DNA of 64,000 bases from Paracoccaceae bacterium (GTDB lineage: Bacteria; Pseudomonadota; Alphaproteobacteria; Rhodobacterales; Rhodobacteraceae): the NCBI GenBank assembly GCA_028874915.1, contig JAPPHA010000009.1, forward strand, positions 16,974 to 80,973. Reading direction: 5' to 3'. The position numbers were made by a program, and so were the translations under genes. Under the pieces are notes generated by a model. It did no database searches, was not told the origin of the DNA, and saw nothing but the letters and a program-made list of their open reading frames with translations. Shown here piece after piece: positions 1-22,015 of this stretch; the stretch's first letter is position 1, and the number at the start of each line of letters is the position of its first letter.

Positions 1-933
1 ACGTTCACGAAAGTCCTCATCTTCGTCGGCTTTGGACAAGAGGAAACTGGACGGATCGATGGGATTTGTCATGGATTTCGTTTGGCATCGTGGGTGCTGG
101 GCTGACGGAATTCCACAGTAACGCAACAAGAAGAATTCTGCAACACTTGGCGTGCGGGACGGTCCCACGATTCGAAATCGTGGTTGATTCGGATTGGTGT
201 GCCCAAGTCATTTCGATCGTTGCTGGCGTTGGCAGCGTACGGAATGTTCTGCAAAGAAATTGACGACAGGAACGGCCGTAGAATTCCGGTTCAACAGAGG
301 TTGAATCCTATTGGTGATCGGACAGGGCGGGTGCGAGCGATGTCGACAGTCGGGGATGATCGAATCCTCTGGTTTGGTCGTGGCCGTGATCGAAAACGGG
401 CTTGCGCTCTGGCGCGTCAACATGATCAACATGGACCGCCTGCACGCCGACATTCCCCATGCGAGACCAGAAACCGGCGGTTTTCGCGCGCGGATGGCCA
501 GCCTTGAAGAGCTAGTCGACGGCCTCGGGATGTCGTGGCTTCCGGGAATTCGCCATTGGGCGCTCAAGACTTGGGCTGCTGTTGCAGCTGCTTCTGTTTG
601 ATTGTGCGATGGGGACACTCGTTCCGAAGTACATGAATCTTCTACTTCACGACCGCTACAGAAGATAGGCCGATGACCTGCCTTCGGAAAGCCTGTTGAT
701 CATTGTTGCTGTAGACACCATACATCCTCGGACTGCAGGCACGGGCCAAGACGTTCGACGTGGCGCCTCGTACCAGGATCGCCCGCCCATCGACCGCAGG
801 AGAACGGCGATGCGTTATCATCTGCAGATCGGGCGTCCGGTATCGGAACAACCCCTATGGTTTCGCCCCGTTCAAGGTACCGTGCGTCCGCATTCTGCGC
901 CTCCTTCCGGATTGACGAGTTCTTTCCGCAATC
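1..933. other. Left flank, no recognisable gene
   Basis: No reading frame here resembles a known family; the short open frames on both strands overlap each other and look like chance. The only small structure seen is a perfect 8-bp hairpin with a 3-base loop at 165-183 (arms CCACGATT and AATCGTGG), without a T-run. The 3' part should contain the promoter of the cyclodehydratase gene, but no convincing -35/-10 pair was found. Confidence 0.4.
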
Positions 934-3301: not shown

Positions 3302-4420
3302 ATGGACGTATTCACGACCATTACGCAAACCCAGGATCGTCTCGCCGAAGAGGGCGGCACGATGGGTGACTTGCTCGGACATTTTCGCAACAGGATTTCA
3401 CCGATTTTGATTGGTGAACCGGAATGGGAGCACATACTCGAACGCGCCAGAACGCTCCCGATTACGTTCGGTGCCCTTCCCTTCGGCTTTGAACTCCCAC
3501 TGCATTCGCGCAGGCCCGTAGCAGACTTCGGTGTTTCTCTGGCGAGCGGAACTCTACCGGCGGCGTATTTCCGCGACCGGGTACGAGTCGACACGACGGA
3601 TGCGACCGCAAGAGCGATTACCCTGCTTCTCGGGCAGATGGACTCCGAAGAATCATGCCTGCGTGACATCGTCGGCCGCAAGTTGATGCTGGAATACGAC
3701 ATTGGTTCGGCTCGACAAGAAGACGGTTCCGGTCCGGGAATGTTCCTGAGACCGGGAGAACGACCGATCATCGGCGGCGGCGGGCAGGTGAACGATGTCG
3801 CCACGGTTGTCGATGCGCTCGTAACCTGCGTCGGCTGGACAATGACCAAGGCCGAGAGAAAGACCATCGAACGCGTTTACATGGCGCAACCGAGCGATAC
3901 GCGCCTGGATTCATTCGGTGTTTTCCCGTCTCGTTCCCGGGCAATCCGCCTGGCGATCATGGGATTCAAATCGCGTTCAGAAGTCTGTTCCTATCTTGAT
4001 CGCACGGGTTGGCCAGGTCAGATCCCGGCTGTGAAATCCGTAATTGACCGCTTCATGGACCGTGCAATAGTCGTCAGGATCGGAATCAACATTGACGTTC
4101 AGGAAACAGGTATCGGTCAGACACTTGGTCTCACGCTCATTGTAAAACAAAGATACACAAAGGATTCACGATACTGGCTCGACGACCTCACCGATTGGGA
4201 TCCATTCTTGGCGGCCCTGAGCCAAGAGGACATAGTCGTTCAGGAAAAGCTCCCGGCTCTCGCCGACTGGGTTTCGAAACCGACAATGATCTTTGCAAAG
4301 TCTGGTCGCTTCGTACTCCTGCGAGGAATTCACCACATCAAGCTGGTCGTTTCCGGCAATCAGTTGCGAAAAGCCAAAGCCTATGTGTTCATGGTGCTTT
4401 CCGGAGCGATCGAAAACTGA
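3302..4420 (+). CDS. Unknown protein co-transcribed with the YcaO cyclodehydratase
   Basis: A 372-residue protein I cannot place in a family. It starts 11 bases after the YcaO stop (ATG at 3302; a TTG at 3284 would overlap the upstream stop), so the two are almost surely co-transcribed. There is no signal peptide or membrane segment. Seen by eye: a motif rich in aromatic and acidic residues near the N-terminus (GALPFGFELPLH, then ADFGVSL), a central Gly cluster (PIIGGGGQVNDV), and a C-terminal half with alternating beta-like stretches. I see no nitroreductase, radical-SAM or FAD motif. By position it is a maturation partner of the azoline pathway, perhaps taking the role of the missing dehydrogenase or binding the precursor; this is inference from context only. 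Confidence 0.7.
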   Translation: MDVFTTITQTQDRLAEEGGTMGDLLGHFRNRISPILIGEPEWEHILERARTLPITFGALPFGFELPLHSRRPVADFGVSLASGTLPAAYFRDRVRVDTTDATARAITLLLGQMDSEESCLRDIVGRKLMLEYDIGSARQEDGSGPGMFLRPGERPIIGGGGQVNDVATVVDALVTCVGWTMTKAERKTIERVYMAQPSDTRLDSFGVFPSRSRAIRLAIMGFKSRSEVCSYLDRTGWPGQIPAVKSVIDRFMDRAIVVRIGINIDVQETGIGQTLGLTLIVKQRYTKDSRYWLDDLTDWDPFLAALSQEDIVVQEKLPALADWVSKPTMIFAKSGRFVLLRGIHHIKLVVSGNQLRKAKAYVFMVLSGAIEN

Positions 4421-4555: not shown

Positions 4556-4807
4556 TTACCAGCAGCAGCAAAGACCGGCGGAGATTGCTTCGAGCTGTTC
4601 CTCGGTGATGTTCGGGTCTGGCGGCAATGCAAGGTGTACCGTTTGCATGTCGCTCTCGTGAACCTTGATAGTCATGGAATCGGGAATCGAGATTCCCAAC
4701 TCTTCACAGATGGTAGATTTCGGATCTGCAAGAAGTTGTCGCCTGAACTCAGTGTCCACCGAGGACTTCTCAACAATCTGCCGCAGCATTTCGTCGCCAC
4801 TTCTCAC
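4556..4807 (-). CDS. NHLP-family RiPP precursor with mini-core LCCCW
   Basis: An 83-residue precursor. Residues ~15-77 are a nitrile-hydratase-alpha-like leader: TEFRRQLLADP, the ELGISIPDSMTIKVHE stretch, VHLALPPDP, and the acidic helix ITEEQLEAISAG at the end. After the AG cleavage site only five residues remain: LCCCW. The start is the second of two adjacent GTG codons (4807-4805), because AGGAG lies seven bases upstream; the longer frame to 4951 lacks leader similarity before this point. Three adjacent cysteines fit the YcaO cyclodehydratase next door, and the C39 peptidase/ABC protein at 12090 is the family's usual leader protease. The single Trp is a possible substrate for the halogenase at 15765. 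The leader also contains one Cys (residue 34). Leader and cleavage assignment are by pattern; the modified product is inference. Confidence 0.88.
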   Translation of the reverse strand: MRSGDEMLRQIVEKSSVDTEFRRQLLADPKSTICEELGISIPDSMTIKVHESDMQTVHLALPPDPNITEEQLEAISAGLCCCW

Positions 4808-5176
4808 CACAACTCTCCTTTTTCTTTGAGGCCGATGGCAAATAAACCCCAACCACAGCCTACGACGCAATCTGTGCGATTTCAATCCGAATTCGCCAAA
4901 ATATTCTGGGCTACACCTGCAATCCGGCAGCACAAGCATCTGAAAAACCAACCTTGAACGAAACCGCCACGCGGTAGTTTCCCGGGGCTCCGTTTCGTCA
5001 TTGAGATTGAGGTTCGATCAGGGCTGATCAACTCCACCGTCTGCCTCCGTTCCGGCTTGGCCGGCGTTGTCCTTTCCCCGTTGACGGACCGCCGGCAGAT
5101 GGGCCGGCGGCGCACCGTCCCGACCCGGGGGAGATCGTCAGTGACCCAGTCCAACGGCAGGAAGGTCGAGACTGTC

Positions 5177-6015
5177 ACGCCGCTTCGCCAGCGGATGATC
5201 GACCAGATGCGCATGGCCAACCTGGCCGACGACACGCAGAATGCCACCTTCTTCGAGAGTCGCCGACCGGCCAGACACACCCGCCAGTCGCCGGATCGGC
5301 TCGATGCCGAACAGGTCCGGGCCTGGCTCAAGGGGCGGATCGACTGCGGACTCAGACCGCGCTCGACAGACGTGGCTCTCGCGGCCCTGAAGTTCCTGTA
5401 CCGCGATGTGTTGCGGCGCCCGGAACTTGTCGAGGGACTCCGCAACCGGAGAATCCCGCGAACGCCGCCGAGCCACCTGGAGGTCGCGGAGGTCGAACGC
5501 CTGTTCCTGGCAACGCCCAACCTCGCAGTGCGATGCTCACGGCCTGCGCCGCGGGGCTTCGCATCTCCGAAGTCGTCGGTCTGCAGATCACCGAAATCCG
5601 CGCCGACCGCCGACTGCTCCACATCCGTGCCGGGAAAGGCGGAACCGGGAGAATGGCGTCGCTGCCGCCCGGAATGCTCAAGCATCTTCGCCGTAACTGG
5701 ACAAGCCTCTGCCCCCGGCCGAAGACCTGGCTATTCTACGGCTCTTCACCGGAAGAGCCAATCAAGGCGGCCACCCTGCGCAGGGCTTTCAATGCCGCCC
5801 GGGACCGGGCCGGGATCGACCAAGGCACCAGCTTCCATGCATTGAGGCATAGCGCCGCCGCTCACTGGCATGAGCGCGACGGCGGCATCGATATCATCCA
5901 GGATGCGGTCGGACATCGCAATTCCGACACGACGCGCGCCTACGCCCGCGCCACGGGCAAGATGTTCGAGGCCCTCAATCACCCGGTCTCCGGCTTCAGC
6001 CTCCTGAACGCCTGA
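5177..6015 (+). pseudogene. IS91-type tyrosine recombinase, frameshifted
   Basis: Site-specific recombinase of the tyrosine integrase family, the type often carried beside IS91-like elements. The N-terminal SAM-like domain (LRQRMIDQMRMANL..., LTAEQVRAWL-like) runs in one frame to about 5520. The catalytic domain continues in another frame from about 5533, so a frameshift sits at ~5522-5532 inside PNL...AMLTACAAGLR. The catalytic set is otherwise intact: Arg in AAGLRISEV, Lys in GKGG, HALRH, GHRNSDTT and the Tyr in RAYAR. It stands between the precursor and the exporter genes and explains a break in the cluster. It could be recently inactivated or, less likely, translated by frameshifting. Confidence 0.8.
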
Positions 6016-6376: not shown

Positions 6377-8782
6377 CTATGGCGAGTGCGCATCCGTTTT
6401 CCGATCCGCCACGATCAGCAGTGCCGGCAAGAGTGTCACGTCGGCAATGAACGCAAATCCGATAATCGTTGCGGTCAAGACTCCGACCTGTGCGGTGGGA
6501 ACGAACGGCGAAAACACAAAAATTAGAAAACCGGCGACCAACACAACCGTCGTCGTGAACAGAGCCCGGCCGGCAGTGTCAAAGGCGTAACGCACTGACT
6601 CTTCTGGGGGCAGTCCGAATTCACGCCGCGCACGGCGGTACTTGCTGAGAAAATGAACCGTGTCGTCCACGACAATCCCGACAGTCATCGCCACCACCAC
6701 AGATAGTGAAAGTCCCACGAGTCCTACGGTCAACCCCCAGATGCCAAAGCCCATGACGGCAGGAATCAAATTGGGAACGATGCTGATCACACCCAGGCGC
6801 AGGGATCGCAGAGCAAAGAGAAGAATGGCGGAGATTGCGAGGAGCACAACGATCGTCCCGACCAGCATCGCGCGGATGTTTCGCTGCCCGATATAGGCGA
6901 ACAGGGCGGCCGGGCCCGTGCTGTTGACGCCAGCGACATGCGGCGCGTTTTCCGCAAGCCAGGCCTCGGCCTGCGCATTCAGGTCAAGCACATCCTGAGA
7001 ATACAATGTCTCCGCCGATATCGTAACCCGGGTGGCCGATCGGGATCGGTCGATCTGATTGTTCAGGTTCAGACCCAGCGGAAGCGACAGTTCGTAGAGC
7101 AGCAAATACTGGGCCGCCAGATCCTGGGTTTCCGGAATTCGGTAGGCGGCAGGATCGTCACCGTGCATGCTCATGTTGAGTTGCCGAAACGTATCGGTGA
7201 TAACCGCGACATGGCGCACGGGCGGCTGTTCCCGATACCAGTCCGCGAAGTTCGCAACCTCGGCAAGGAAACTGGGGTCAGTGACGCCGCCCTCGAAGGA
7301 TGCCTCCAGAGAGTACTCGAGCAGGGTATTGCCGCTGAGGTGCTCGTCCATGAAATCCGTGTCTTGGCGAAACTCGACGCTTTCGTCGAAGAAGTGGACC
7401 AGCACATCGTTAAGCTCGTTGCGTGGGATGGCCAAAATCATCACGGGCACAATTGCCGCCCACACCCACAAGAAGGTCTTTCTTTGGCGAATCACAAAAT
7501 CTGCCACGGCGTTCATTGTCGGTCCGGGGAGCCGGAGTTCTCTTGCGGCACGAACGGGGAGGAGCGAAAGCAGGGCCGGAAGAAAGGTGACAGAGAGAAT
7601 AAACGAAGCAGCAATGCCCAAAGTGACGAAGTTGCCGAGATCACGGTAGGGCGGGACTTCGGAAAAGTTCATGCTCAAGAATCCGAGCGCCGTCGTGAGG
7701 CTCGCAAGAAAAACGGGATGCAGGTTGAGCTTGATAGATTCGATGATGGCATCATTCTTGGAATTCCCTGCACGCAGGCTCTGCTGCACAGCCACAAGCA
7801 GGTGCACGCAGTTCGCCACGACAATCATCAGTACGATTGTTGGCGCCGGCGATACCGGTGGGGAAAAAGGCAGGCCGATCCAAACGCCCATTCCCACAGA
7901 CACGAAAATGGAAAAGACGATAACCAGCCCGGTCGCCGCCACACCCGCCCAACTCCGGATCAGGACGCCAAGAACGACGGCCATGAGAAGAAGGCTGGCG
8001 GGCAGGAAGATCTTCTGGCTGCTGATCGACGCTTCAACAAACGTCTGGTTGATCATAACCGAGCCGACGATTCGAATGTCGACGTCGGGAAACCGGTTTT
8101 CGGCCTCAACCGCCGTTGACCTGGCGAATTCGGCGACCTCGGCCACGGCCCCCAGCACGCCCTCCTCCGGTAGTTCAACGGTAACGTTCACGACACTGAC
8201 GTCGCCGTTCCTGGCCAGAATACTCCCTGCGATACGCGGATCGGTTAAGGCGATCGTTCGGATTCGTGACCGCGCGGCCTCCTCGGCGAGTTCCTGCGAA
8301 TCGACAAGATCCCGCACATACAAATCGTCGCCGTCGGCCGTCGTGTGCTGAAAATTGGCAATCGAGTCCACGCGCCTCGAATACGGCGTATTCCAAGCGG
8401 CCTCCGTGAGCCAGACAACGGCCGAGAGGGCACTTTGCGAAGTGGCGTTTCCGTCGTCCGGAACAATCAGGAACACGATGTTCTCGTTCTTCCCGTAGGT
8501 ATCCTCCAGTGCTTCCAGTGCCAGGAGCTGGGGATTGTCGTCATCAAAGAAGATGCGGTAGTTGGCGGAGAATTCGAGCCGGGTGATACCGCTCGAAGCA
8601 ATCGCAACCAGAACCAATGTGATCACGACGACGAGCCAGCGGTTCGCAAGCACCCGTTCGGCAAATCGTTTGGCGAAGGGTTCGCCGCCCGGGTCGCGTT
8701 TGTCCACGGAACTGCCGCCGCTAAATTCGAAAGAGTTCGGCGCCAAGTGGCGCGTCAAGAATCGACAGCACCGACGTGTCAT
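6377..8782 (-). CDS. MMPL/RND-superfamily exporter
   Basis: An 801-residue inner-membrane exporter of the MMPL (hydrophobe/amphiphile RND) type. One membrane helix near the N-terminus (WLVVVITLVLVAIASSG) is followed by a large periplasmic domain, a five-helix bundle, a second periplasmic domain and a second bundle ending near the C-terminus: the usual 12-helix duplicated plan. Acidic residues within the last bundle (VDDTVHFLSKYRR) match the proton-relay region. In many proteobacteria such a protein is encoded beside a LolA-like protein, and that partner is here at 17454 on the same strand with the halogenase and NHLM genes between. It may move a lipophilic product to the outer membrane. The ATG at 8782 has a weak ribosome site; an in-frame GTG lies about 75 bases downstream. 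Confidence 0.85.
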   Translation of the reverse strand: MTRRCCRFLTRHLAPNSFEFSGGSSVDKRDPGGEPFAKRFAERVLANRWLVVVITLVLVAIASSGITRLEFSANYRIFFDDDNPQLLALEALEDTYGKNENIVFLIVPDDGNATSQSALSAVVWLTEAAWNTPYSRRVDSIANFQHTTADGDDLYVRDLVDSQELAEEAARSRIRTIALTDPRIAGSILARNGDVSVVNVTVELPEEGVLGAVAEVAEFARSTAVEAENRFPDVDIRIVGSVMINQTFVEASISSQKIFLPASLLLMAVVLGVLIRSWAGVAATGLVIVFSIFVSVGMGVWIGLPFSPPVSPAPTIVLMIVVANCVHLLVAVQQSLRAGNSKNDAIIESIKLNLHPVFLASLTTALGFLSMNFSEVPPYRDLGNFVTLGIAASFILSVTFLPALLSLLPVRAARELRLPGPTMNAVADFVIRQRKTFLWVWAAIVPVMILAIPRNELNDVLVHFFDESVEFRQDTDFMDEHLSGNTLLEYSLEASFEGGVTDPSFLAEVANFADWYREQPPVRHVAVITDTFRQLNMSMHGDDPAAYRIPETQDLAAQYLLLYELSLPLGLNLNNQIDRSRSATRVTISAETLYSQDVLDLNAQAEAWLAENAPHVAGVNSTGPAALFAYIGQRNIRAMLVGTIVVLLAISAILLFALRSLRLGVISIVPNLIPAVMGFGIWGLTVGLVGLSLSVVVAMTVGIVVDDTVHFLSKYRRARREFGLPPEESVRYAFDTAGRALFTTTVVLVAGFLIFVFSPFVPTAQVGVLTATIIGFAFIADVTLLPALLIVADRKTDAHSP

Positions 8783-9147: not shown

Positions 9148-12090
9148 TCACGCGATCTGCCTCTTTACCAGTTCCCTGAAGACCCCGTCGACTTCCATGA
9201 GTTCATCGAAGGATCCACTTTGCACAACTTTTCCAGCCTGTAACACGTAGATTCGGTCTGCCCTTTCCAGAGTGGAAAGCCGGTGGGCGATTACGATCCG
9301 TGTGGACGTCAGGTCAGTCAGGTTCCGCATGACCTTGGCCTGGCTTTCATTGTCGAGCCAGTTGGTGGCCTCGTCAAGCAGCAAGACTCGCGGGTTGCCG
9401 ATCACTGAACGTGCGATTGAGATCCGTTGACTTTCACCTCCCGACAGAACGGCACCGCTGGTGCCAACCATAGTCATCATGCCCATGGGCATACCTTTGA
9501 TTTCATCCGCAACTGCGGCGACTTGGGCGGCTTTCCAGACTTCCGCATTTGCAACATCGTCGTGGTGACTGACCAAGTTGTCCCAAAGATCGTGAGGATG
9601 GAGTCCAACGGACTGTGGAACCGCACCAATGTTCCGGCGAACCTGTTTCAGGTTCAGGTGCCTCAGGTCGCGTCCATCGTAATACACCGAGCCGGCTGTC
9701 GGCCGATCGATTCCAAGCGCAAGCCGGAACAGGGTGCTCTTTCCGGCACCGGAATGACCGGCAATCGCAATGAATTCACCTGGGCGGGCACGAATCGTGA
9801 CGTCGTCAAGGATGAGCGGACCGTCAGGTTCATAGCGGAAGGAAATGCGATCGAACAGAATGTTGCCACCCAGGTATTCGACTGGCGTTCCTTCGACGTC
9901 GGATTCAGAAACAGACGCAAGAAAAGGGCGCATCTGATCAAATGCCGGCAATATGGCGGCGATGGTACCGAAGGATTCGCCGAGCCTGGCGATGGCAGAC
10001 TGGTAAATGACAAATACAGTGTAAATGACGAGAAAGTCGCCAACCGAAACACTTCGGCCGTTCGTTGTTGCCACCGCGTAGAGCAAGACCCCACCGCCGA
10101 TAAGGGGAAGCGCGGCACCGAACGCCCGCGAATGTTCCTGAAGCGCACCCAGTTCGAGTTCCGCGCATTTCTGATTGCGGAATTCCTGCGCCCAGATGGC
10201 AAAGGCCGACCCTTCCGCGTTCTCCACCCGCAGCTTTGCGATGCCTCCCACGATCTGGAACAATCGACTGGTCACGCGGCGGGTCGCGCCGATCATCCGC
10301 CCGTATGGCGAGACCTGACGCAATCCGAGGCCAATGGTGACCAGAAGCGACGCCAGGCTGATGACGGCAGCAATGACCCCGAGTGTGGCGTCGTAGAAGA
10401 CGATGACGCCAAAGATCGGAAGCAGAAAAAAAACTGAAAGCAGACTATCAGCGACGGCAACCTGCAAGCCGTCGCGAAGATTCTGGAAAGTCATTCCCGA
10501 CATGGCGAGGTCGCCGGCGGGATGGCGGCGCAAAATGCTCTGTGGCAACCGCATGAGGCGATCCCAAACGGCAGCTTCGACCCGTGATGCCGAGCGTCCC
10601 TCGAGCCGCATCATCGCCTTGCTTTGACCCATATGCAGCAGCGTTCCGAGCAGGCCAAAACCGACAACGGTTGCAGCCATGACATAGAGTGTTCCGGCAT
10701 TTGCGCCTGCCGTGACTTGGTTCGCGACAAATCCAAGTGCGAGTGCCGGCAGCAGATTGAGCAAACCGCCCGAAAGCCCGGCTATTACCAGGCGAACCAG
10801 ATCCGTGGTCGACCCGTGCCAGGCCATTGCCAACAGGTCCGCCGTGCTCACGTTCCCCGACGGCAGGGGCCGATAGAACATCCACGCACCCTCTTTTAGC
10901 GTGCGGGCGCGATCCTCCGTTACCGGGATGCTGCGCTTGCTGATCGGATCGACTTCCCGGTAACGCCCGAGCAATCCAGGCAACAGCGCGACAGGCTGGC
11001 CGTCATCAGCACGGAACGCCAGAAGCGCGTTGCTGTCGCCACGCCACCAGTTGTCCTCGACTCTCAGTCGAACGCGTCGCGCGCGCACCCCTGACGCATC
11101 GAGAACGTCGACGAGTCGGAGCGGAGACTCAGATAACCCGGATCGCGCGGGAATCGTGAAATCAATTCCCTCATGTCCGCCAACAGTCTCAAGAGCGTCA
11201 GCCAGTGTCGTGTCCTCGATCCTGGCATCCCGGGAAATCGGCTGATCGTACATGTTGAAAAGCCGCTGCCGCGCCGTTCTTTCGGCCATACGGCGGCTTT
11301 TTGTCCGCGCACGTTCGAGATTCGTGTCGTCCACCACGGCAAGGCGGCGGTTCAGACGTTCCAGGGTGAAGGCAACCGCGTGAAATGAGGCCAGCGCCGA
11401 CAGAAGTATGCCTCGTCTTGCCAGTGCCTCCGTGGATTGGCCGGAGACAGTCGTCTCATCGAACACCTTTAGCCAACTCGTCCGCGTCAGTGGAATCATG
11501 GCCTCGTGCATGCCAGCGGCCTCGGCGGCATCCGATTGGTCAACAATGTCCATGTACAGGCTTTCGCCTCGGGGCGACTCGGATATCCAGACCACGCCAC
11601 GCCGAACGGACAATGTGGAAGGGCCCACGGTTTGTGTCAGTCCGGGTTCCGCCAACGCCGTCGGACGCGGAATACGGCTTGCAAATCGGGACAGCGTGTC
11701 GGTTATGGCTGTCAGCCAAGTGTCGATCTGTTCCGCGAGTTCAACTGGATGAATCTCCGACAGCGAGGAAGCCGGCAGACGTTTCAGAAGCGTTCCCGGC
11801 ATTCCTTTGGCTATCAGTCCAAGTGTCGTACTTTCGTCACTGTCATGTGCGTCCGGCACGACTCCTGGCAGCAACCAGCCGGACTCGCGGCGCATCAGGA
11901 ACTGAGGCGTTACCAACTGGACTTCGTCCCGGGATTCGACCAGGAACAGATTGACGGCGCCCTGATCGATGAACCAGACACTTTCCGGATCGTCGAGTTT
12001 GACCGGCAGGTTGCCGGCGCAGGGCACGGAAGTGCCGGAGTTCGCGGCAAGGTCGGCTAAGGTCGTGTATTTCCGTTTGCCGTCTTGCAT
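9148..12090 (-). CDS. NHLM-type ABC transporter, permease/ATP-binding (ABC2)
   Basis: A 980-residue ABC exporter half-molecule of the NHLM microcin class (second ABC protein). About 400 N-terminal residues form a long cytosolic region without membrane helices. Six membrane helices follow (TTDLVRLVIAGLSGGLLNLLPALALGF onward), then a nucleotide-binding domain with Walker A GHSGAGKST, signature LSGGESQRISIARS and Walker B VLLLDEATNWLD. It has no C39 peptidase domain. Its ATG overlaps the TGA of the upstream peptidase-ABC gene by one base, so the two are translationally coupled and probably form a heterodimer that exports the trimmed peptide. The length fits the family, which often carries this large N-terminal extension. 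Confidence 0.92.
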   Translation of the reverse strand: MQDGKRKYTTLADLAANSGTSVPCAGNLPVKLDDPESVWFIDQGAVNLFLVESRDEVQLVTPQFLMRRESGWLLPGVVPDAHDSDESTTLGLIAKGMPGTLLKRLPASSLSEIHPVELAEQIDTWLTAITDTLSRFASRIPRPTALAEPGLTQTVGPSTLSVRRGVVWISESPRGESLYMDIVDQSDAAEAAGMHEAMIPLTRTSWLKVFDETTVSGQSTEALARRGILLSALASFHAVAFTLERLNRRLAVVDDTNLERARTKSRRMAERTARQRLFNMYDQPISRDARIEDTTLADALETVGGHEGIDFTIPARSGLSESPLRLVDVLDASGVRARRVRLRVEDNWWRGDSNALLAFRADDGQPVALLPGLLGRYREVDPISKRSIPVTEDRARTLKEGAWMFYRPLPSGNVSTADLLAMAWHGSTTDLVRLVIAGLSGGLLNLLPALALGFVANQVTAGANAGTLYVMAATVVGFGLLGTLLHMGQSKAMMRLEGRSASRVEAAVWDRLMRLPQSILRRHPAGDLAMSGMTFQNLRDGLQVAVADSLLSVFFLLPIFGVIVFYDATLGVIAAVISLASLLVTIGLGLRQVSPYGRMIGATRRVTSRLFQIVGGIAKLRVENAEGSAFAIWAQEFRNQKCAELELGALQEHSRAFGAALPLIGGGVLLYAVATTNGRSVSVGDFLVIYTVFVIYQSAIARLGESFGTIAAILPAFDQMRPFLASVSESDVEGTPVEYLGGNILFDRISFRYEPDGPLILDDVTIRARPGEFIAIAGHSGAGKSTLFRLALGIDRPTAGSVYYDGRDLRHLNLKQVRRNIGAVPQSVGLHPHDLWDNLVSHHDDVANAEVWKAAQVAAVADEIKGMPMGMMTMVGTSGAVLSGGESQRISIARSVIGNPRVLLLDEATNWLDNESQAKVMRNLTDLTSTRIVIAHRLSTLERADRIYVLQAGKVVQSGSFDELMEVDGVFRELVKRQIA

Positions 12091-14264
12091 CAGCCAGACT
12101 TGACCAGCTTGAAATACGTTCCATCCAGGTCGGCAATCAATTCGTCGTGCGTCCCGCGTTGGACTTCGACACCCTTGTTGAGCACGACAATTTCGTCGCT
12201 ATCCCTCACGGTGCTCAGCCGGTGGGCCACAATCAGGCAAGTGATTCCGCGACGCCGCAAGGCCTCGTCGACATATTCTTCGGTCTCGGCATCAAGGGCA
12301 CTGGTTGCCTCGTCCAGGATGAGCACCGTCGGATTGCCAACCAGCGCCCGGGATATTTCCAGCCGCTGGCGCTGACCGCCGCTGAAATTCACCCCGCCCT
12401 CTTCAACAAATGTCGAATATCCGTCAGGTCTCAGCAGGATCTCGTCATGGATCCCGGCGTCGCGCGTCGCGGCAAAGATGACCTCATCCGGAACAGCCGG
12501 GTTCCACAAAGTGATGTTGTCGCGCAGAGACGCAGAAAAAAGCACAACCTCCTGGTCGACCATGGAAATTGACTGCCGCAGCACATCTTCTGGAATCTCG
12601 TCCCGCCGATGACCGTCAAACAGGACTTCTCCCGACCATGGCTGATAGACACCCGAAACCAGACGCGCCAGCGTCGACTTTCCGGAACCGCTTGGACCAA
12701 CGATGGCGACTCGTTGCCCGGGTTTTACCATGAGGTTGAAATCCTTGATCAGAGGAGGGCGGCTCTTGTTAAACCCGAATGTAACGTTTCGCAGTTCGAG
12801 TTGCCCCGCCAGTTGGAGGCGGCCTTTGAATGTGGGGATCGACTCCGAATCCGCGATTCTGCGAGTAAAAACCGGATCTTCTGCGGTCTCGGAAATATCC
12901 TCGAGTCTTTGCAAATCGGTTTCGAGTGTCTGTCGTTGGTCGGCAAATTCCAGGAAGCGTCCGACAGGAGCCAGAAACATTTCTGCCAGGATATAGAAGC
13001 CGACCAGCGCGCCGAGGGTCAGGTCTCCGGCCATGACCAGACTTCCCCCGAATCCCAGGACCGCCGCACAGCGAAAGGTAGCGACAACGGTTGGCAGCGC
13101 GGCATTGACGGAAACCAATTCGGAATAAAACTGGCGCGCCTCCAGTTCGCGCGCCTGCTGGCCACTCCAGCGTGAAAAAAACCGGTCATCCGACCCTGTC
13201 ATGCGGAGATTGTCCGCATGACTCAACATCTGCAAACCAAAACCAATCAGCAGTCCCTGCTCTCGACGCATGGCGTGGCTTCTGACAGCCCGACCCAAAT
13301 TGAGACTGTGGGCTGCCAAACCGTGAAGAACGGCCAACAACAGCACGATCAGCGTGAGCCGGACATCATAAGCAAACATGGCGACGAGCAACACCACGCA
13401 TGTCGCCATATCGACAACAAGCACAAGAAACTTTTCCGACAGGTTTTTCGAGATCCTATCGATCGAGGAGACGCGATCCGTTAGATCGCCAACCAGTCTG
13501 TGTTCAAAAAACTCGATCGGCAACCTCAGCAACCGCAATACGCCCCGGCTGTAACCGATCACCGAAATCCGGACTGCGAGCCGTTTGAGGAATCGATGCT
13601 TGAGCAACGACAGAGTGTAAACCAGGACACCGCCGCCAAGCAGGGCAGCAACCACGCCGCCCCAGGGCCCGCGATTTGCCAGAACGTCGTCCACGAAAAC
13701 ACCAAGGGCGACCGGAACAATGAGCATCAGTATGGTCGTCAGGAACGCGCAAGCCGTGACTCCGGCAAGCACGGTCCATGAACCGGCAAGCAAGGCTCCC
13801 AATTGCCGGAACAGGCCCGGCGGCTGACCACCAGGCCTGAAGTCGGCACCTCGCTTGAATCGCAACGCGATCCCGCTGTAACTCTTTTCGAATTCTTCCG
13901 CCGAAAGCCGGCGTCGCCCCGTCGACGGGTCGTTGAGATAGAAACAGCCGCCTTCGTATCCTTCAAGTACGACGAAATGGCTGAATTGCCAGAATATGAT
14001 CAGCGGCAATTCAAGCATCTTCAACTGTTCCACGCGGAGACTGAGTCCGCGGCATTCGACACCAAAGTGCCTGGCAGCGCGCACGATGCTCGCAGCACTG
14101 CTCCCGTCACGGCTTACTTCGCACTTTTCACGCAATTCACTCAGCGGCACCCGGCGCCCGAAGTAGGCCAGTACACTCCCAAGGCACGCAGCACCACATT
14201 CCGACGCGTGCATTTGCAACACAATCGGTGTGGTTACCCTTTGTCTCAAATCGTCCGACGCCAC
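12090..14264 (-). CDS. NHLM-type C39 peptidase/permease/ATPase (ABC1)
   Basis: A 724-residue peptidase-containing ABC transporter that removes the leader and exports the core. The N-terminal C39 cysteine protease carries the oxyanion Gln17 and catalytic Cys23 (LQMHASECGAACL), the His in FSHFVVL and the Asp in LNDPSTG. Six membrane helices follow (~160-440), then an ATPase domain with GPSGSGKST, FSGGQRQRLEISRA and LILDEATSALD. The expected substrate is the NHLP precursor at 4556, whose leader ends in SAG rather than a strict GG. The gene lies 37 bases downstream of the HlyD-like gene and overlaps the second ABC gene by one base, so the three make one export operon. Confidence 0.94.
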   Translation of the reverse strand: MASDDLRQRVTTPIVLQMHASECGAACLGSVLAYFGRRVPLSELREKCEVSRDGSSAASIVRAARHFGVECRGLSLRVEQLKMLELPLIIFWQFSHFVVLEGYEGGCFYLNDPSTGRRRLSAEEFEKSYSGIALRFKRGADFRPGGQPPGLFRQLGALLAGSWTVLAGVTACAFLTTILMLIVPVALGVFVDDVLANRGPWGGVVAALLGGGVLVYTLSLLKHRFLKRLAVRISVIGYSRGVLRLLRLPIEFFEHRLVGDLTDRVSSIDRISKNLSEKFLVLVVDMATCVVLLVAMFAYDVRLTLIVLLLAVLHGLAAHSLNLGRAVRSHAMRREQGLLIGFGLQMLSHADNLRMTGSDDRFFSRWSGQQARELEARQFYSELVSVNAALPTVVATFRCAAVLGFGGSLVMAGDLTLGALVGFYILAEMFLAPVGRFLEFADQRQTLETDLQRLEDISETAEDPVFTRRIADSESIPTFKGRLQLAGQLELRNVTFGFNKSRPPLIKDFNLMVKPGQRVAIVGPSGSGKSTLARLVSGVYQPWSGEVLFDGHRRDEIPEDVLRQSISMVDQEVVLFSASLRDNITLWNPAVPDEVIFAATRDAGIHDEILLRPDGYSTFVEEGGVNFSGGQRQRLEISRALVGNPTVLILDEATSALDAETEEYVDEALRRRGITCLIVAHRLSTVRDSDEIVVLNKGVEVQRGTHDELIADLDGTYFKLVKSG

Positions 14265-14301: not shown

Positions 14302-14859
14302 TTATGGTTGCCTTACTCGAAAAAGATCCACGGGTGACTGCCCGCCAACAAGGATGATGATCCGGCATTCCCGACTCGTAACGGAAGTCAAATCAATGCC
14401 TTCCTTGAGCACGATGTCGACGCGGCGCACTGTAACCGGAAGGATGAAACCCAAGGCCGCCGGTGTTAGCACATCAGCCGACGGCACAGCAGAAACTGCC
14501 GTGATCTCACCTTCAAATGCTTTGACTCGTCCATTTTCCGTAAACAGTTCGACCGTTGCTGGCATTCCGGCACGGACCGATGAAGCGGCTTCGTTTTCGA
14601 CCCACACAAGCACTTGCACCGACCGGTCGCCCTCAATCACGGCTCCGGCAGGTTCGACCAGTATTCCGTCAATCACGAGGCTACGGGATACGTTGCCAAG
14701 GACCAACCACACCGCGAGGATGACCATCAACACAGCAATGACCGACACAAGCAACCGCTCCCGCGGTGTCGAAATCATCAGCAGCCGGTCGAGTTGCTCC
14801 CGTTCTTCCTTGGCTTCGGAAACTGTGTTGTGAAAAGAATCAAACAGGTTGTTGAACAC
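14302..14859 (-). CDS. NHLM-type HlyD-like adaptor, short form
   Basis: Periplasmic adaptor subunit of the NHLM exporter. The N-terminus (EQLDRLLMISTPRERLLVSVIAV) matches the family signature, followed by one membrane helix (VIAVLMVILAVWLVLG) and a beta-barrel-like periplasmic part. It has only 185-192 residues: the lipoyl hairpin and coiled-coil stretch of ordinary HlyD proteins is missing, so it may dock on the ABC pair without reaching an outer-membrane channel. A TTG at 14880 lies inside the GAGGAGG ribosome site, so I prefer the GTG at 14859, although the 12-base spacing is long. It is the first gene of the exporter operon. Confidence 0.82.
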   Translation of the reverse strand: MFNNLFDSFHNTVSEAKEEREQLDRLLMISTPRERLLVSVIAVLMVILAVWLVLGNVSRSLVIDGILVEPAGAVIEGDRSVQVLVWVENEAASSVRAGMPATVELFTENGRVKAFEGEITAVSAVPSADVLTPAALGFILPVTVRRVDIVLKEGIDLTSVTSRECRIIILVGGQSPVDLFRVRQP

Positions 14860-14880
14860 GATCGTGAGGATCCTCCTCAA

Positions 14881-15764: not shown

Positions 15765-17039
15765 CTAGCAGCCGAGGCCCTGAGACATCTGGGCGTAGCT
15801 GGTGAGCGGAACTGCGCACATCCGACTCCAGTCCGCTTTACCGACAACCGGTTGGTTCAACAATTCGATCATATCTTCAAATCTCTTGAGTGCGTCGCAA
15901 CCGACCGCCTCCGGATCCGTAGCCATCCGGTACTTTGGCCAAGCGTCGTCCCGAGCGTAACGCCAGAATTCGGTGTCATAATTGGAGCCCCGGCAATAGT
16001 GCCAACCGACGAACAGCCCGTAGCATAGCATGTTCCTGACGAGAAACCGATTGACGATCGGCGCATCGCGGTCACTGTTTTCTACCGAACGGTTACTGCG
16101 AATGTGGAGAACCATACCAATTTGAAACTGGGCGGACACGATTGCCGTGGCTTCGAGAGGTTCCATGAAAGCCCCTGCGTTGCCGACACGGGCCACGGCC
16201 CCGTCATACATCTGACGATGAACAAAATTTGGAAACGAAATGACCGCGCGTTGCTCAAAACTGGATACGCCTTCGGCTTCAAGGAACGCATCAAAGTCCG
16301 ATTCAACCTCGGAAAGATCGGATATGTCGCGGTTGAAGACATATCCGTAGGACGTATGCACTGTAAGTGGAATGACAAATATCCAACCATGCGGCCTCGC
16401 GACAGCGCGGGTATAGGTATGGTGCAGTACCGGTCCCTTCCGACCGTTCGTGATGAAAGCCGGACAGCGGCGGATGACGGCCGTATTGGTGGGAATGAAC
16501 GGAATGACGACATGCTGGTCCTGACACAGTTCTTTCGGAAACCCGCGTGCATCGAAGACCAGGTCGTACCGTTCCGGAGGACGGCCCTCGAACTCAACCT
16601 GCGCGCCGCCCTCAACTTTGGTGATGTTGAGTACGTTCGCGTCGACATGGTGTGCACGCGTGCTTTCTTGCAGCAGTTCCGCCAGGTAATCGGCAGACAG
16701 GTGATAACCGTATGAAACCTGTTGCGGCATGAAGTAGTGGGTGAAATTCTGATTTCGCCGGCCCCACCCTTCAAATGCCACGCCGTACTTTCGCGTTCCT
16801 TTCAGGCGTCTCTGGATGGTTTCATCGGGCAGGTCCGTCAATCGTCGCAATTCCTGGACCAGACTCGGCCAGCTGCCTTCGCCCACGCCAATGACCGGGA
16901 CGCGGGAGTCGTAGATATGGTGAAGTTCGTGGTCGATGTCGGGGTGAAGCCGCGTTACGCTTGCGGCTGCCAACGACCCCGCCGTTCCTCTTCCGACAAC
17001 CGCGATTTTCCGAAACGATGCCTTGCCCGGTTGAATCAT
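15765..17039 (-). CDS. Flavin-dependent tryptophan-halogenase homologue
   Basis: A 424-residue FADH2-dependent halogenase-like enzyme. FAD is bound by GRGTAG (16-21) and the GVGEGSWPS loop (51-59). Lys84 in RKYGVAFEGW aligns with the catalytic Lys that carries hypohalous acid in PrnA-type enzymes, and Glu296 in AFMEPLEATAI aligns with the glutamate of the ESTG motif, whose Ser is Ala here. The WxWxIP signature reads WIFVIP (219-224), so its second Trp is Phe. It is about 100 residues shorter than free-Trp halogenases. I chose the ATG at 17039 because similarity starts just after it; the open frame runs to 17129. A separate flavin reductase must supply FADH2. In this locus the natural substrate may be the Trp of the LCCCW core; that is inference. 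Confidence 0.87.
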   Translation of the reverse strand: MIQPGKASFRKIAVVGRGTAGSLAAASVTRLHPDIDHELHHIYDSRVPVIGVGEGSWPSLVQELRRLTDLPDETIQRRLKGTRKYGVAFEGWGRRNQNFTHYFMPQQVSYGYHLSADYLAELLQESTRAHHVDANVLNITKVEGGAQVEFEGRPPERYDLVFDARGFPKELCQDQHVVIPFIPTNTAVIRRCPAFITNGRKGPVLHHTYTRAVARPHGWIFVIPLTVHTSYGYVFNRDISDLSEVESDFDAFLEAEGVSSFEQRAVISFPNFVHRQMYDGAVARVGNAGAFMEPLEATAIVSAQFQIGMVLHIRSNRSVENSDRDAPIVNRFLVRNMLCYGLFVGWHYCRGSNYDTEFWRYARDDAWPKYRMATDPEAVGCDALKRFEDMIELLNQPVVGKADWSRMCAVPLTSYAQMSQGLGC

Positions 17040-17453: not shown

Positions 17454-18374
17454 TCAGCGAGAGCGCCGAAGGGCCGTTCGGGTGAATTCCCGGTCATCAA
17501 GGTTGTTGCCGAACGAAAAGTCCGACCATTGCAGGGTCGTGCTTGCGCCTGTCAAGTGATTCACCATCGTCTGTTCTGCTGCCCGCCAGAACCGATTCAG
17601 GAATAGTTGATAATCGACAAGGGAAAGCGACTTCAGGTGCGAGCCCTTTCTGTCGTAAAGTTCCATTTTCCAGGTTCGGAACTCGGCTGTATCCTGCCAA
17701 ACAACCTTGCGGCTGTATCCGGAACCTTCATCCAGGGGAATTTGCTCGGTTACCGTACACGTGAGTTTGCCGCAGGGCTCCTCACGAAGGAATCTGTACG
17801 TATATTCCTCAAACTCCGGTGGACTCATGTCTTCGTAGGTAAACTCGCTGCCCATGAATGATCCGGACCGTCTCGATGCATTGATGCGCTTCACCCTTTT
17901 CAGCGCAGGCAAATACAGCCACTGGTCGTCTTCGGAATTGACGTGCGCGTGCGTCAAGAGGGCGGTTCCCTGGACGTCTCTTGGCTGATCGAACAGAAAC
18001 AGACTCTTGTCACCATCATCCGGCACTTCCAGCACCTTGAATCGCATCTTCCTGACGCTTTCCCGACCCTTTCGGTCGCGCAGCACCATCGACATACGTG
18101 CCGTAAAGTCCCCAAACCCGTCGTTGCGAGCGCTCGCTTCGCGGGCAATTCTGTAGCCCTTGTCTTCCGGCGACTCGTCCTGTGCCACGGCATGTGCGTT
18201 TGGCAGGCCGACATAGGTAAACGCGAGAACCAGGGCACAGACCCGGACTCGACATGCCACACGATATGCCACACCGATGGGACGCCGGAGACCCTTTACC
18301 CAGCCTCCGCAAGAATACCGTACTTCGGACGCGTTGTGATCCATAATCATCCTCAATGGTTCCATGTTGGACAT
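17454..18374 (-). CDS. LolA-like outer-membrane lipoprotein-sorting protein
   Basis: A 306-residue periplasmic protein with the LolA/LppX-type fold. The signal peptide has an unusually long, Arg-rich n-region; the hydrophobic core is VCALVLAFTYVGL and cleavage is likely after AHA (~62). Family hallmarks follow: DKSLFLFDQPRDVQGTALLTHAH, DDQWLYLPALKRVKRI, SGSFMGSEFTYEDM, SGYSRKVVWQD and the C-terminal TTLQWSDFSFGNNLDDREFT. ATG at 18374 is supported by TAAGGA seven bases upstream. This family usually travels with an MMPL/RND exporter, present here at 6377; the same pair occurs in aryl-polyene clusters, where it is thought to move lipids or pigments to the outer membrane. Nearness to a halogenase suggests a role in placing a modified product in the envelope. 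Confidence 0.88.
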   Translation of the reverse strand: MSNMEPLRMIMDHNASEVRYSCGGWVKGLRRPIGVAYRVACRVRVCALVLAFTYVGLPNAHAVAQDESPEDKGYRIAREASARNDGFGDFTARMSMVLRDRKGRESVRKMRFKVLEVPDDGDKSLFLFDQPRDVQGTALLTHAHVNSEDDQWLYLPALKRVKRINASRRSGSFMGSEFTYEDMSPPEFEEYTYRFLREEPCGKLTCTVTEQIPLDEGSGYSRKVVWQDTAEFRTWKMELYDRKGSHLKSLSLVDYQLFLNRFWRAAEQTMVNHLTGASTTLQWSDFSFGNNLDDREFTRTALRRSR

Positions 18375-18896: not shown

Positions 18897-21365
18897 TCAC
18901 ACCGTAATGGCCGAAACCGGACTTCCCTCTTCTTCGGCCGTGCCACGGTTCATCATTCCGTCCAGTGTGTCGATTTCGGCAGCAGTCAAAACCGCCATGT
19001 CCTCAATCGCGGCAGTCAGCGAATCAAAGTCGTCTTGACCGCAGGCCCGAGCAAGAACTGCCTTAACGCGGGATCCGAGGGAGTCTACCGGCACATCGTC
19101 GCCCGCGACCAGCCGCCGGGCGCCTCGGAAGTTCCTCCACAAGGTAACGGCTTCTGCCAGTTTGTTCGCCACGTCTTCGGATAACTGCGCCTGACTTGCA
19201 GCAGCAAGAAAGACGGACGCCGACGAGGGCGCCGACCCGATCGGCGCGTTCGCGCCAATGAGCAACTGGAAACGCCTCGCCATCCGGTCGATGTCCTGGA
19301 TTCCACCACGCATGGTTTCCGGCGAGAAAACGGTGGTTCCGATGGCACCGTCGCCGGTCTGGCGCGACCCCGCGATCACTGTGTCCCGCACCACGGCCGA
19401 ACTGAGGGCTTCGCGTCGCGCATCCTCGAATCGCTGCGCGATCCCGCCGGAGCCGAATTCGAAGATACAACGTGCACGGGTCAAGTCCTGCAGTTCGCGT
19501 GCGGATGCGAGCGAAAGGGTGGCTTCGCCAAAGTCCGCGAGTGCCCGCACGGCGCGGCCGTTGGTGTTCGGCCGGGTCGGAGCAAACAGCAGGCTGTCGC
19601 GCGTGAGGTCTCCGAGTGCAGCGAAGGACCTCTGGCAAAAGCCGTCGAAGAGGCCCGGGGAATCCCCCTCATGGACAAACAGGACGTCGAGCGTGGTCCG
19701 AAGCGACGCTTCGCGGCTGGCCAGGTCTCCCAGGACGATGGCAGCGACACCTCCATGGTCCTGCGTGCCGTGCCGGTCTTCAAACTCCTCAGCGACCGCC
19801 GACAGAACGGCAGAAATCGAAGATTCCGCCAGATTGGACAGGGCGGGCTCAGCTTCGACGGGCGTCAGGTTTCCACGCAAGACGTGCATTCCGACCTGGA
19901 ATGCCTTTTCGTTCGACCAGCTCTGCATTGAATCGACCGTATCGGAAACGTCCCGGACGGGAATCTCGGCGATTCGTTCCTTCATTTCCGGGACGCCGAA
20001 TTCATGCATCCAGTAAAGGCGCGCCAGTCCCTGGCGGGCAATCGCCTCGGACTCCCGATCCGGTCCGAACCCCGTCGGCAGGTCGAGGTCGGTGAACTCC
20101 TTGTCCTGCAGACTTTCGAGGAGCTCCGGGTGTCGCTCGATCCACTGGGCCAGGTATGGTGCGACGCCGAAAATCTCGACGATGGCATCGAAGGCTTCCG
20201 GGCGCGCGGCCGAAACTTGGCTGTCATAGGCGCTCCAGTCATCGATCTCGGGATAGAAATGCGCGCGCCACTGGTCGACCAAGGGGTCCATCGTCTCAAA
20301 CCACCGCTTCGGACGCACGACGAGAGCGAACATCTGGCCGTAACTGCCCGGCAACTGCGGCGATTCGTCGGCACCGTGATTCTGAAGCAGCGGGTAAGGT
20401 CGGCTCGCCACCGCGTGATGATCAGGATGCCGCTGCATGTTGTAGAACATCCAGTTGCTGAACTTGTAGTTGGCGTTCCAGGAGTGCCTCGGACGGATCG
20501 TCTCGAACCGGCCGTTAGGCAGCCGGACCCGGCGCAACCCGTAGTGTTGCATGTAATTTGCGACCTTCATTGAGAAGACGACGCCGAGACTCAGAAACAC
20601 ATAGACCGGAACCGCCCACGGACCGCCCAGCCAGACCACCAAGGCATACCAGAAAGCGGTTTCAATGACGTAACGCCAAAACGGGTTCGAATGGTGCCAG
20701 ACCGGCAGTCGACGTCGCGCCAGCCTTTCACGGACGATCCGCCATGAGCCGGTAAGATTGTGCACAACCTCCCGCGGAAAATACTGCCAGAAACTCTGGC
20801 CCTTTGGCGCAGAACCGGCGTCATACGGGGTGCCGACGAGGGCATGGTGAATGTAGACATGCTCGGTCGCGTACTGCGGATAGGAAACTGAAGAGAGCAG
20901 GAATTCGCCAATCCGCCGCTCCCATTTCGTGCGCCGGTGGATCAATTCGTGACCGACGATGAAAACCGCCTGAGCCTCACAGGTGAGCACTATCGCCAGC
21001 AAAACGCATTCCCAGACCGGGAACAGGTCGGCGGCAAGGATCTGCCAGATCCCGAAGACAAGCGTCGGTGGCCAGAGAACCGCCCAGATCCAGACCGGCA
21101 GGTCGTGCCAGAACAGCAGCCGTCTCGGCGTCTTGACGGGATCCATGCTCCGTTCGTCGTCCCCGAATGCGATGTCCAAGGGACCGGCAAGCATAAAGAA
21201 GACAAACGCTGCCAGGATCCACCAGCCGCCGTACAAAAGCGAGAGAATGATCAGCGGAAAAATCCCCAGGGGAAGAAAATGTGGCAAGGCGCTGCCGAGT
21301 GTTGGCTTGACCATCCTGACATTCGTCAAGTCTTGACCGTCCGGTATGTCTACGTTCACCGCCAT
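18897..21365 (-). CDS. AlkB-type membrane hydroxylase fused to a GlnE-like domain
   Basis: An 822-residue fusion. Residues 1-~390 are an AlkB-family non-haem di-iron hydroxylase with membrane helices and the full histidine set: HELIH (139-143), HVYIHH (169-174), NYMQHYGLRR (270-279) and QRHPDHH (311-317). Residues ~398-820 resemble the C-terminal adenylyltransferase half of glutamine-synthetase adenylyltransferase GlnE: FGVAPYLAQWIERHPELL, NEKAFQVGMHVLRG, IVLGDLASREASLRTTLDVLF, ELQDLTRARCIFE and GGIQDIDRMARRFQLL. In the nucleotidyltransferase motif the first Asp of SDLDL is Thr558 and only Asp560 remains, so catalysis is doubtful. The ATG at 21365 has AGGACAGGAA upstream; an in-frame longer start at 21440 adds an unlike tail. 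The hydroxylase substrate (alkane, fatty acid or the cluster's product) is not shown by the sequence. Confidence 0.88.
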   Translation of the reverse strand: MAVNVDIPDGQDLTNVRMVKPTLGSALPHFLPLGIFPLIILSLLYGGWWILAAFVFFMLAGPLDIAFGDDERSMDPVKTPRRLLFWHDLPVWIWAVLWPPTLVFGIWQILAADLFPVWECVLLAIVLTCEAQAVFIVGHELIHRRTKWERRIGEFLLSSVSYPQYATEHVYIHHALVGTPYDAGSAPKGQSFWQYFPREVVHNLTGSWRIVRERLARRRLPVWHHSNPFWRYVIETAFWYALVVWLGGPWAVPVYVFLSLGVVFSMKVANYMQHYGLRRVRLPNGRFETIRPRHSWNANYKFSNWMFYNMQRHPDHHAVASRPYPLLQNHGADESPQLPGSYGQMFALVVRPKRWFETMDPLVDQWRAHFYPEIDDWSAYDSQVSAARPEAFDAIVEIFGVAPYLAQWIERHPELLESLQDKEFTDLDLPTGFGPDRESEAIARQGLARLYWMHEFGVPEMKERIAEIPVRDVSDTVDSMQSWSNEKAFQVGMHVLRGNLTPVEAEPALSNLAESSISAVLSAVAEEFEDRHGTQDHGGVAAIVLGDLASREASLRTTLDVLFVHEGDSPGLFDGFCQRSFAALGDLTRDSLLFAPTRPNTNGRAVRALADFGEATLSLASARELQDLTRARCIFEFGSGGIAQRFEDARREALSSAVVRDTVIAGSRQTGDGAIGTTVFSPETMRGGIQDIDRMARRFQLLIGANAPIGSAPSSASVFLAAASQAQLSEDVANKLAEAVTLWRNFRGARRLVAGDDVPVDSLGSRVKAVLARACGQDDFDSLTAAIEDMAVLTAAEIDTLDGMMNRGTAEEEGSPVSAITV

Positions 21366-22015
21366 TGTACTTTCCTGTCCTTGGCTTTTCGGGCGTTCAT
21401 TTCCCTGCCCAAGTTCTGCAATCGTAACCGACGAGTCCAATCCGATACAACTTCAGACCAGGGGTCAGCATGGCGCCCGTGCGGAATTGCGGTTGTCTAC
21501 GGACACGTCCCGCAGACTGTGCACTTGGTGCCGGACCACTGGCGGGTTCTCCGATTCACCCTTTGACACCGGACGCCTCCTGGACATCAAGGATTAACCC
21601 TCCCTGGGCTCGGGATTGCGGTTTATGACCACGGGCTCGGAAACTCCTTTTGGACCCGCCGCGGAGACTCACCGGGCATGATGCCGGACCAGAAGCGCGA
21701 GCGACAGGCCCCCGCGTCCGGGTCCTCCCAGTTCAGCAGCGTCCAGCCCGTTGCCGCCAGCGGATCCGCCGCGGTCCGCACCTTCAGCGGAAACCCCGCC
21801 TCCTCGAATTGCGGCAGTCCGGCACGCGTTACCCAGTGCCTGCAATACTCCGGGTCGTGGCACGTGTACGCCCCGCCCCGAATCGTGTCCCGGGCGTGCG
21901 TTGGGCGCTGCGTACGCGGTTCTGAGGAGCGACATTCTTATCGGGGCCGATCGCGTAAAGGGCAGGAAGGCGGTCGAATGTGGACAAAGAGGTGCCGTGA
22001 GTTACCCTGTTCTCC
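21366..22015. other. Gap with a decayed minus-strand coding fragment
   Basis: Minus-strand bases ~21920-21623 hold about 99 codons without a start codon (...YCRHWVTRAGLPQFEEAG..., ...AATGWTLLNWEDPDAG...) ending in TAA at 21623. The composition looks protein-like, but I cannot name a family; it is probably the 3' end of a lost gene. Nothing else is supported, apart from the expected promoter of the AlkB fusion near 21370-21450. Confidence 0.3.

Follow-up and report, generated by a model that had tools for sequence, protein, structure and literature searches.

Identification of an srp-type proteusin cluster

What product does a proteusin precursor with a core of five residues give rise to? We addressed this question for a precursor gene in a 64,000-nucleotide stretch of a Paracoccaceae bacterium genome (GCA_028874915.1, contig JAPPHA010000009.1; hereafter the window). 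The gene, an open reading frame (ORF) on the minus strand from 4807 to 4556, encodes an 83-residue NHLP-leader (proteusin) precursor, VRSGDEMLRQIVEKSSVDTEFRRQLLADPKSTICEELGISIPDSMTIKVHESDMQTVHLALPPDPNITEEQLEAISAG-LCCCW-stop, whose core is preceded by Ser-Ala-Gly (SAG). The surrounding genes identify an srp cluster, and the LCCCW core is not new. In addition to these known parts, the locus carries a protein with a prenyltransferase fold, here called X372, and an NHLP-fused protein resembling class II terpene cyclases. We consider it fairly likely that LCCCW acquires, besides its thiazolines and Trp bromination, a prenyl group placed on Trp by X372, which is closed into rings in class II fashion before export. 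The genes that carry this argument are as follows.

4556..4807, minus: srpE-type proteusin precursor, 83 amino acids (NHLP leader 1-78, core 79-83), assigned by TIGR03793 and homologues
4559..4573, minus: core Leu-Cys-Cys-Cys-Trp, read directly from the sequence, with stop codon 4556-4558; the same as the SrpE core (PMC10858898, PMC10286304)
934..3291, plus: SrpC-type fusion of an E1-like/leader-binding domain with a YcaO cyclodehydratase, for which translation may begin further in
3302..4420, plus: X372, predicted ABBA-fold aromatic prenyltransferase, 372 residues, beside the YcaO gene
15765..17039, minus: flavin-dependent Trp halogenase, SrpI-type, 424 amino acids (PF04820, E 3.1e-44)
1..72, minus: first 24 codons of a 437-amino-acid fusion protein that joins an NHLP leader-like domain to one resembling class II terpene cyclases; it continues to the left (locus L005, 15732-17045)

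The precursor ORF begins with GTG, and an AAGGAG motif ends 7 bases 5' of this codon. Residues 6-78 matched the NCBIfam leader_NHLP model TIGR03793 (69.4 bits, cut-off 50.9, E 1.7e-19), which rules out a chance reading frame. Together with the short core after SAG, this match bears out the ribosomally synthesized and post-translationally modified peptide (RiPP) precursor that a first-pass annotation had read from the sequence. A homologue search at E≤0.001 found 693 sequences, and the homologue counts given here refer to the best 120 of the 693. The C-terminal end was AGLCCCW in 118/120 and AGLSCCW in 2/120, and 117/120 were 83 residues long; across the latter, the core columns were 98-100% conserved versus a leader average of 89%. 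The annotation had allowed for truncation of a longer precursor, and the core shared by 118 homologues rules this out. The two homologues with an LSCCW core (P0008 and P0056) would carry an oxazoline as their first ring. The annotation had also proposed a genome search for NHLP leaders ending in CCCW. We scanned a one-genome-per-species collection for the DNA pattern encoding (A/G)-G-[LIVMF]-CCCW followed by TRR (a stop, or TGG), which matched at least 117 stretches; among those listed, 63 were NHLP precursors ending in AGLCCCW-stop and 54 were chance frames. Two of the 63 loci, L019 and L069, belong to one assembly. Two matches on contig C57 of the window's genome were rejected as extra precursors, as their open frames (L006, 4885-6155, minus) resemble true nitrile hydratase. 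These frames contain VCTLCSCYPR, which we take to be the metal motif of nitrile hydratase, the enzyme family after which NHLP leaders are named.

The adjacent fused E1/YcaO enzyme named in the annotation was likewise recovered: the 934-3291 protein exceeded the cut-offs of both the SagD-type YcaO model TIGR03604 (286.3 bits, cut-off 219.25) and the TOMM (thiazole/oxazole-modified microcin) leader-binding/E1-like model TIGR03882 (133.2 bits, cut-off 36.9), with PF02624 at E 3.9e-94. Read from a start at MIQPGK, the halogenase carries Lys84 and, over positions 105-109, PQQVS, the same residues as published SrpI. The LCCCW core, the YcaO cyclodehydratase and a halogenase with Lys84 and the PQQVS loop thus show that the window holds an srp cluster. 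According to the available portions of PMC10858898 and PMC10286304, SrpE has the core LCCCW, SrpC makes three thiazolines on it and SrpI brominates the C-terminal Trp; the bromination is leader-dependent, occurs at indole C6 and needs Trp at or next to the C-terminus (PMC10286304). The azolines that the annotation predicted on the three cysteines therefore agree with this published chemistry, and its statement that no product with this core had been described does not hold. The precursor, core, YcaO enzyme and brominase are not new. None of the proteins put through family searches matched an azoline oxidase, in line with thiazolines rather than thiazoles.

At positions 66-72, the studied SrpE leader has the contact motif NLTEEQL, with Leu67 as a contact, in the published text available to us, whereas the window's leader reads NITEEQL and thus places Ile at that contact. 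NITEEQL occurred in 99/120 homologues and NLTEEQL in 3/120, so Ile67 is the common natural form. By the title of Nguyen et al. 2021, srp gene clusters are reportedly highly distributed in sponge microbiomes.

A predicted prenyltransferase and an NHLP-terpene cyclase fusion

Three components lay outside the first reading of this locus: a Trp halogenase at a distance of 11 kb, the X372 gene adjoining that of the YcaO enzyme, and the fused NHLP-terpene cyclase. A confident structure model of X372 adopted the fold of ABBA aromatic prenyltransferases, and several of its structural neighbours in the PDB have titles that name free Trp or small indoles. Residues E64, K347 and K359-x-Y361 were invariant or nearly so among homologues (the conservation count for far homologues covers 13 sequences, with L158 left out). 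Assignment of X372 as a SagB-type azoline oxidase was rejected, as it had no family match and showed the ABBA fold instead. A plasmid search with X372 gave no useful lead. The X372 prenyltransferase-fold family is possibly new.

The cyclase-like domain is related in sequence to class II cyclases: its profile matched drimenol synthase (E 1.1e-9), AstC (3.7e-5) and squalene-hopene cyclase (6.9e-5). Class II terpene cyclases carry a catalytic Asp motif of the DxDD/DxDTT type. In the fusion protein, this motif is represented by DLDS, which aligned with DDLDTTS of drimenol synthase and was invariant in 38/38 and 11/11 rows; the next residue was T in 33/38. Alignment of all 38 canonical cyclase homologues included the N-terminal NHLP region, which showed invariant columns. 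To our knowledge, neither MstE nor drimenol synthase has an NHLP domain, and the NHLP-terpene cyclase fusion is possibly new.

Conservation of the two proteins with the LCCCW core

We took 50 of the 63 LCCCW loci into whole-genome searches. Many of these assemblies are fragmented drafts, so the co-occurrence counts are lower bounds. X372 was present in 49/50 genomes and the cyclase in 44/50, each in several phyla; both lay on one contig in 39 of the 44 genomes having both, with starts always at most 6.5 kb apart. A strong SrpI-type halogenase match (E≤3e-112) was found in 46/50 genomes (one split, three partial), two others having weak matches only and two none. Halogenase, cyclase and X372 shared a single contig in 30/42 genomes.

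Full-length X372 at 39 loci was assigned from record titles to Pseudomonadota, Acidobacteriota, Nitrospirota, Gemmatimonadota, Binatota and Latescibacterota, with 2/39 lacking a phylum. A quick tree of these loci and the window required 7 phylum changes versus a minimum of 5, which is no proof of transfer. X372, even in divergent form, occurred in 2/60 relatives searched, and among 385 genomes of the window's class it was detected (E≤1e-10) in 11, the window's own genome included. Its spread is patchy.

We then examined 12 X372 genomes further, namely the other ten from the class and the two relatives. One of them, G271, matches G041 of the 50-genome set in contig positions and is probably the same genome. 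Canonical X372 was found in 7/12, all with LCCCW, halogenase and cyclase. The remaining 5/12 had divergent X372 only, and none gave a halogenase match at E≤0.001. Among these five, G051 (of the window's own genus) and G374 had an RCCC core and G372 an LCCCF core, and all three lacked both halogenase and cyclase at E≤0.001; no core was found in 18 kb of G080. The cyclase was present in only one of the five, G347. There, 11 NHLP precursors (L155, 10334-15893; L156, 2441-3562) surround a 29% X372 and a 40% class II cyclase. They have ten different cores, all 11 ending in Trp and none containing Cys, and no halogenase match was found in the genome and no YcaO match in 40 kb. These results indicate that enzyme content largely follows core sequence, with exceptions.

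Several further precursors were observed near X372 homologues. In G372, the sister precursor with Phe for Trp (LCCCF; L158, 13104-13406, minus) is accompanied by YcaO and X372. Each of the RCCC precursors at L124 (15297-15635, minus), L130 (12841-13110, minus) and L157 (11167-11457, minus) lies beside two X372 paralogues and a YcaO gene. A WCCCGN core, with Trp at the front, was seen at L131 (15385-15639, minus) and L132 (11991-12281, plus), the latter about 0.8 kb from a canonical halogenase. At L159 (5697-6242, minus), an NHLP precursor with the end GGSAGCM lies beside a 43% X372. Far relatives, with X372 at about 26% (L126, L127, L128, L129 and L160), had the cores FAPGGDSW (L126), WAPTSSSY (L128) and IGDIDTW (L129). 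A cyclase match without the NHLP part was present at L126, L127 and L160, and no precursor was found in the stretches examined at L127, L160 and L161.

Proposed product and alternative explanations

Based on published SrpE chemistry, the three cysteines would be converted to thiazolines by the SrpC-type YcaO enzyme, and the C-terminal Trp would be brominated at indole C6 by the SrpI-type halogenase. X372 would transfer a prenyl group to the indole of the same Trp. Since class II cyclases require polyene substrates, the donor is probably C10-C20. The NHLP-fused cyclase would close this chain into rings, and its NHLP domain may dock the cyclase to the same set of enzymes. We infer prenylation and cyclisation from the fold, the Asp motif, the co-occurrence and the tracking of core sequence, plus the direct precedent of NctPC and the enzyme combination of the mpp cluster, both described below. 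The modifications may follow one another in the order given here. The C39 exporter would then remove the leader after SAG, and the RND and LolA-like proteins could export the greasy product.

Whether this holds for srp clusters in general is, in our estimate, evenly balanced: they would make ribosomal meroterpenoids, that is, tri-thiazoline pentapeptides with a bromo-Trp bearing a polycyclic terpene, using a prenyltransferase outside Pfam and NCBIfam, a cyclase docked through its own copy of the RiPP leader fold, and a portable C-terminal-Trp module that is also seen with other precursors, such as the 11 of G347. The portable module, to which YcaO and brominase would be added or not according to the core, is part of this same even-chance proposal. 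The peptide meroterpenoid prediction is possibly new. In the literature searched, as far as its text was available, no prenyl or terpene chemistry was mentioned for srp, the 2021 primary paper lying outside coverage; no paper joining proteusin, prenyltransferase and terpene cyclase was found, nor one combining four of NHLP, terpene cyclase, prenyltransferase, halogenase and YcaO, in a literature set that included neither this 2021 paper nor Hubrich et al. 2024. The available portions of the literature text report no isolated natural product of srp clusters. Terpene addition, if it occurs, would yield an apolar brominated hybrid of peptide and terpene whose mass differs widely from the one expected so far, and sponge extracts could be screened for it directly. 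The clusters would also provide two new enzyme tools, a peptide prenyltransferase outside the family models and a leader-fused terpene cyclase, as well as a natural series for comparing enzyme content with core sequence.

Several observations weigh against prenylation of the Trp and cyclisation of the prenyl chain. The X372 profile had no PDB sequence match at E≤10 and no Pfam/NCBIfam model match, so that its assignment comes from the fold. The cyclase model was poor (predicted local distance difference test score, pLDDT, 64.2), with residues 195-263, including DLDS, below 50 and a weak fold match to MstE and drimenol synthase. The cyclase was not found in 6/50 LCCCW genomes, nor a strong halogenase match in 4/50, all draft assemblies. 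At L128 and L129, X372 occurs with a 24-25% halogenase homologue and no cyclase match in 14-16 kb. The Cys cores at L131 (19 kb) and L159 (12 kb) had no YcaO match, both genomes having a canonical cluster elsewhere. SrpI brominates cores that were never prenylated, as described in the available part of PMC10286304, and bromination thus has no need of prenylation. Finally, X372 homologues of 30-49% identity lie beside cores without a C-terminal Trp, namely RCCC (L124, L130, L157), LCCCF (L158), WCCCGN (L131, L132) and SAGCM (L159). Trp is therefore not proven as the acceptor.

This last point bears on the possibility, which we regard as unlikely, that X372 prenylates the peptide away from Trp, with the freed N-terminus, the C-terminal carboxylate or else a thiazoline as acceptor; X372 relatives would need such an acceptor on RCCC and LCCCF cores. 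One or two X372 copies are retained in the RCCC and LCCCF clusters, and G051, G374 and G372 gave no halogenase or cyclase match at E≤0.001. Muscoride carries C-terminal prenyl esters. A review cites RiPP prenyltransferases that modify the N-terminus (PMC13290415, accessible text). However, in the cases where cyclase and precursor were observed together, the cores end in Trp (the canonical clusters, 11/11 in G347, and FAPGGDSW in L126), and the X372 copies of the RCCC clusters are duplicated and 30-40% identical, so their acceptor may have changed.

Less probable again is that the product ends at the tri-thiazoline 6-bromo-Trp pentapeptide, with X372 and the cyclase-like protein belonging to a neighbouring pathway or having lost catalysis. 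The published SrpE/SrpI work, in the portions available, describes thiazolines and bromination only. Against this, most LCCCW genomes retain both proteins (X372 in 49/50, the cyclase in 44/50) across several phyla and close together, X372 E64, K347 and K359-x-Y361 and the cyclase DLDS are invariant or nearly so, and the cyclase has an NHLP domain of its own. That the two enzymes act on a separate, co-exported small molecule rather than on SrpE is very improbable: several X372 structural neighbours take their names from free Trp or small indoles, but the NHLP region is retained in 38/38 canonical cyclase homologues, and in G347 both enzymes accompany 11 precursors where neither a halogenase nor a YcaO close by was found.

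Comparison with known systems

The closest system is that of the srp clusters of sponge microbiomes, with the same NHLP leader, LCCCW core, YcaO enzyme and leader-dependent Trp brominase with K84 and the PQQVS loop; unlike the window, the published text available from PMC10286304 and PMC10858898 describes no prenyltransferase or terpene cyclase. For the terpene part, the accessible portion of PMC13290415 describes NctPC, in which an ABBA prenyltransferase and an MstE-like class II cyclase form one protein that geranylgeranylates Trp of a ribosomal peptide and cyclises the chain. The likeness to the window is by description. NctPC is a single fused protein, whereas the window has two proteins, with the cyclase fused to NHLP, plus thiazolines and bromination. 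The mpp cluster of Moorena producens (PMC11791876, PMC12715784, available parts) also combines a brominase (MppI), an ABBA prenyltransferase (MppC, the one prenyltransferase named in PMC11791876) and a terpene synthase (MppD) in one leader-borne Trp-peptide cluster, but with a Nif11 leader and a lanthionine ring instead of an NHLP leader and thiazolines. The drimentine pathway, in the part of PMC6173783 available, likewise joins a Trp peptide, a prenyltransferase and a terpene cyclase; its peptide comes from a cyclodipeptide synthase and not from a ribosomal precursor. The solved class II terpene cyclases MstE and drimenol synthase may resemble the window's cyclase in their alpha/alpha barrel fold, judging by a weak model, and share its Asp-rich acid motif, but act on small molecules, unlike the proposed peptide substrate.

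Export genes and other cluster members

The window also contains predicted export genes and further cluster members, all on the minus strand.

12090..14264, minus: NHLM-type ABC exporter with C39 peptidase domain (PF03412, E 7.8e-36; TIGR03796, 822.6 bits, just below the 853.3 cut-off)
9148..12090, minus: second NHLM-type ABC permease/ATPase (TIGR03797, 664.6 bits, just below the 709.4 cut-off)
14302..14880, minus: short HlyD-like NHLM secretion protein (TIGR03794, E 2.1e-4, 20.3 bits, far below the 156.2 cut-off)
6377..8782, minus: RND/MMPL-type transporter, named from its sequence and supported by homologues near SrpE
17454..18374, minus: LolA-like outer-membrane lipoprotein-sorting protein (PF17131, E 2.1e-56)
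18897..21440, minus: fusion of a membrane fatty-acid desaturase/hydroxylase and a GlnE-like domain (PF00487, E 1e-27; PF03710, E 3.5e-8)

In the 63 SrpE-bearing 8-kb loci, homologues of the HlyD-like protein were found in 6 (49-55% identity), of the RND/MMPL transporter in 7 (76-82%, with two more at 23-32%) and of the LolA-like protein in 13. A strong homologue of the desaturase/GlnE fusion (E≤3e-165) occurred in 46/50 LCCCW genomes, with one more weak match, and the fusion also lies beside the RCCC clusters L130 and L157. Between srpE and the RND gene, a phage-type tyrosine integrase (5139-6015, plus) has its frame broken near 5520, and its intact downstream piece matched PF00589 at E 1.1e-25.
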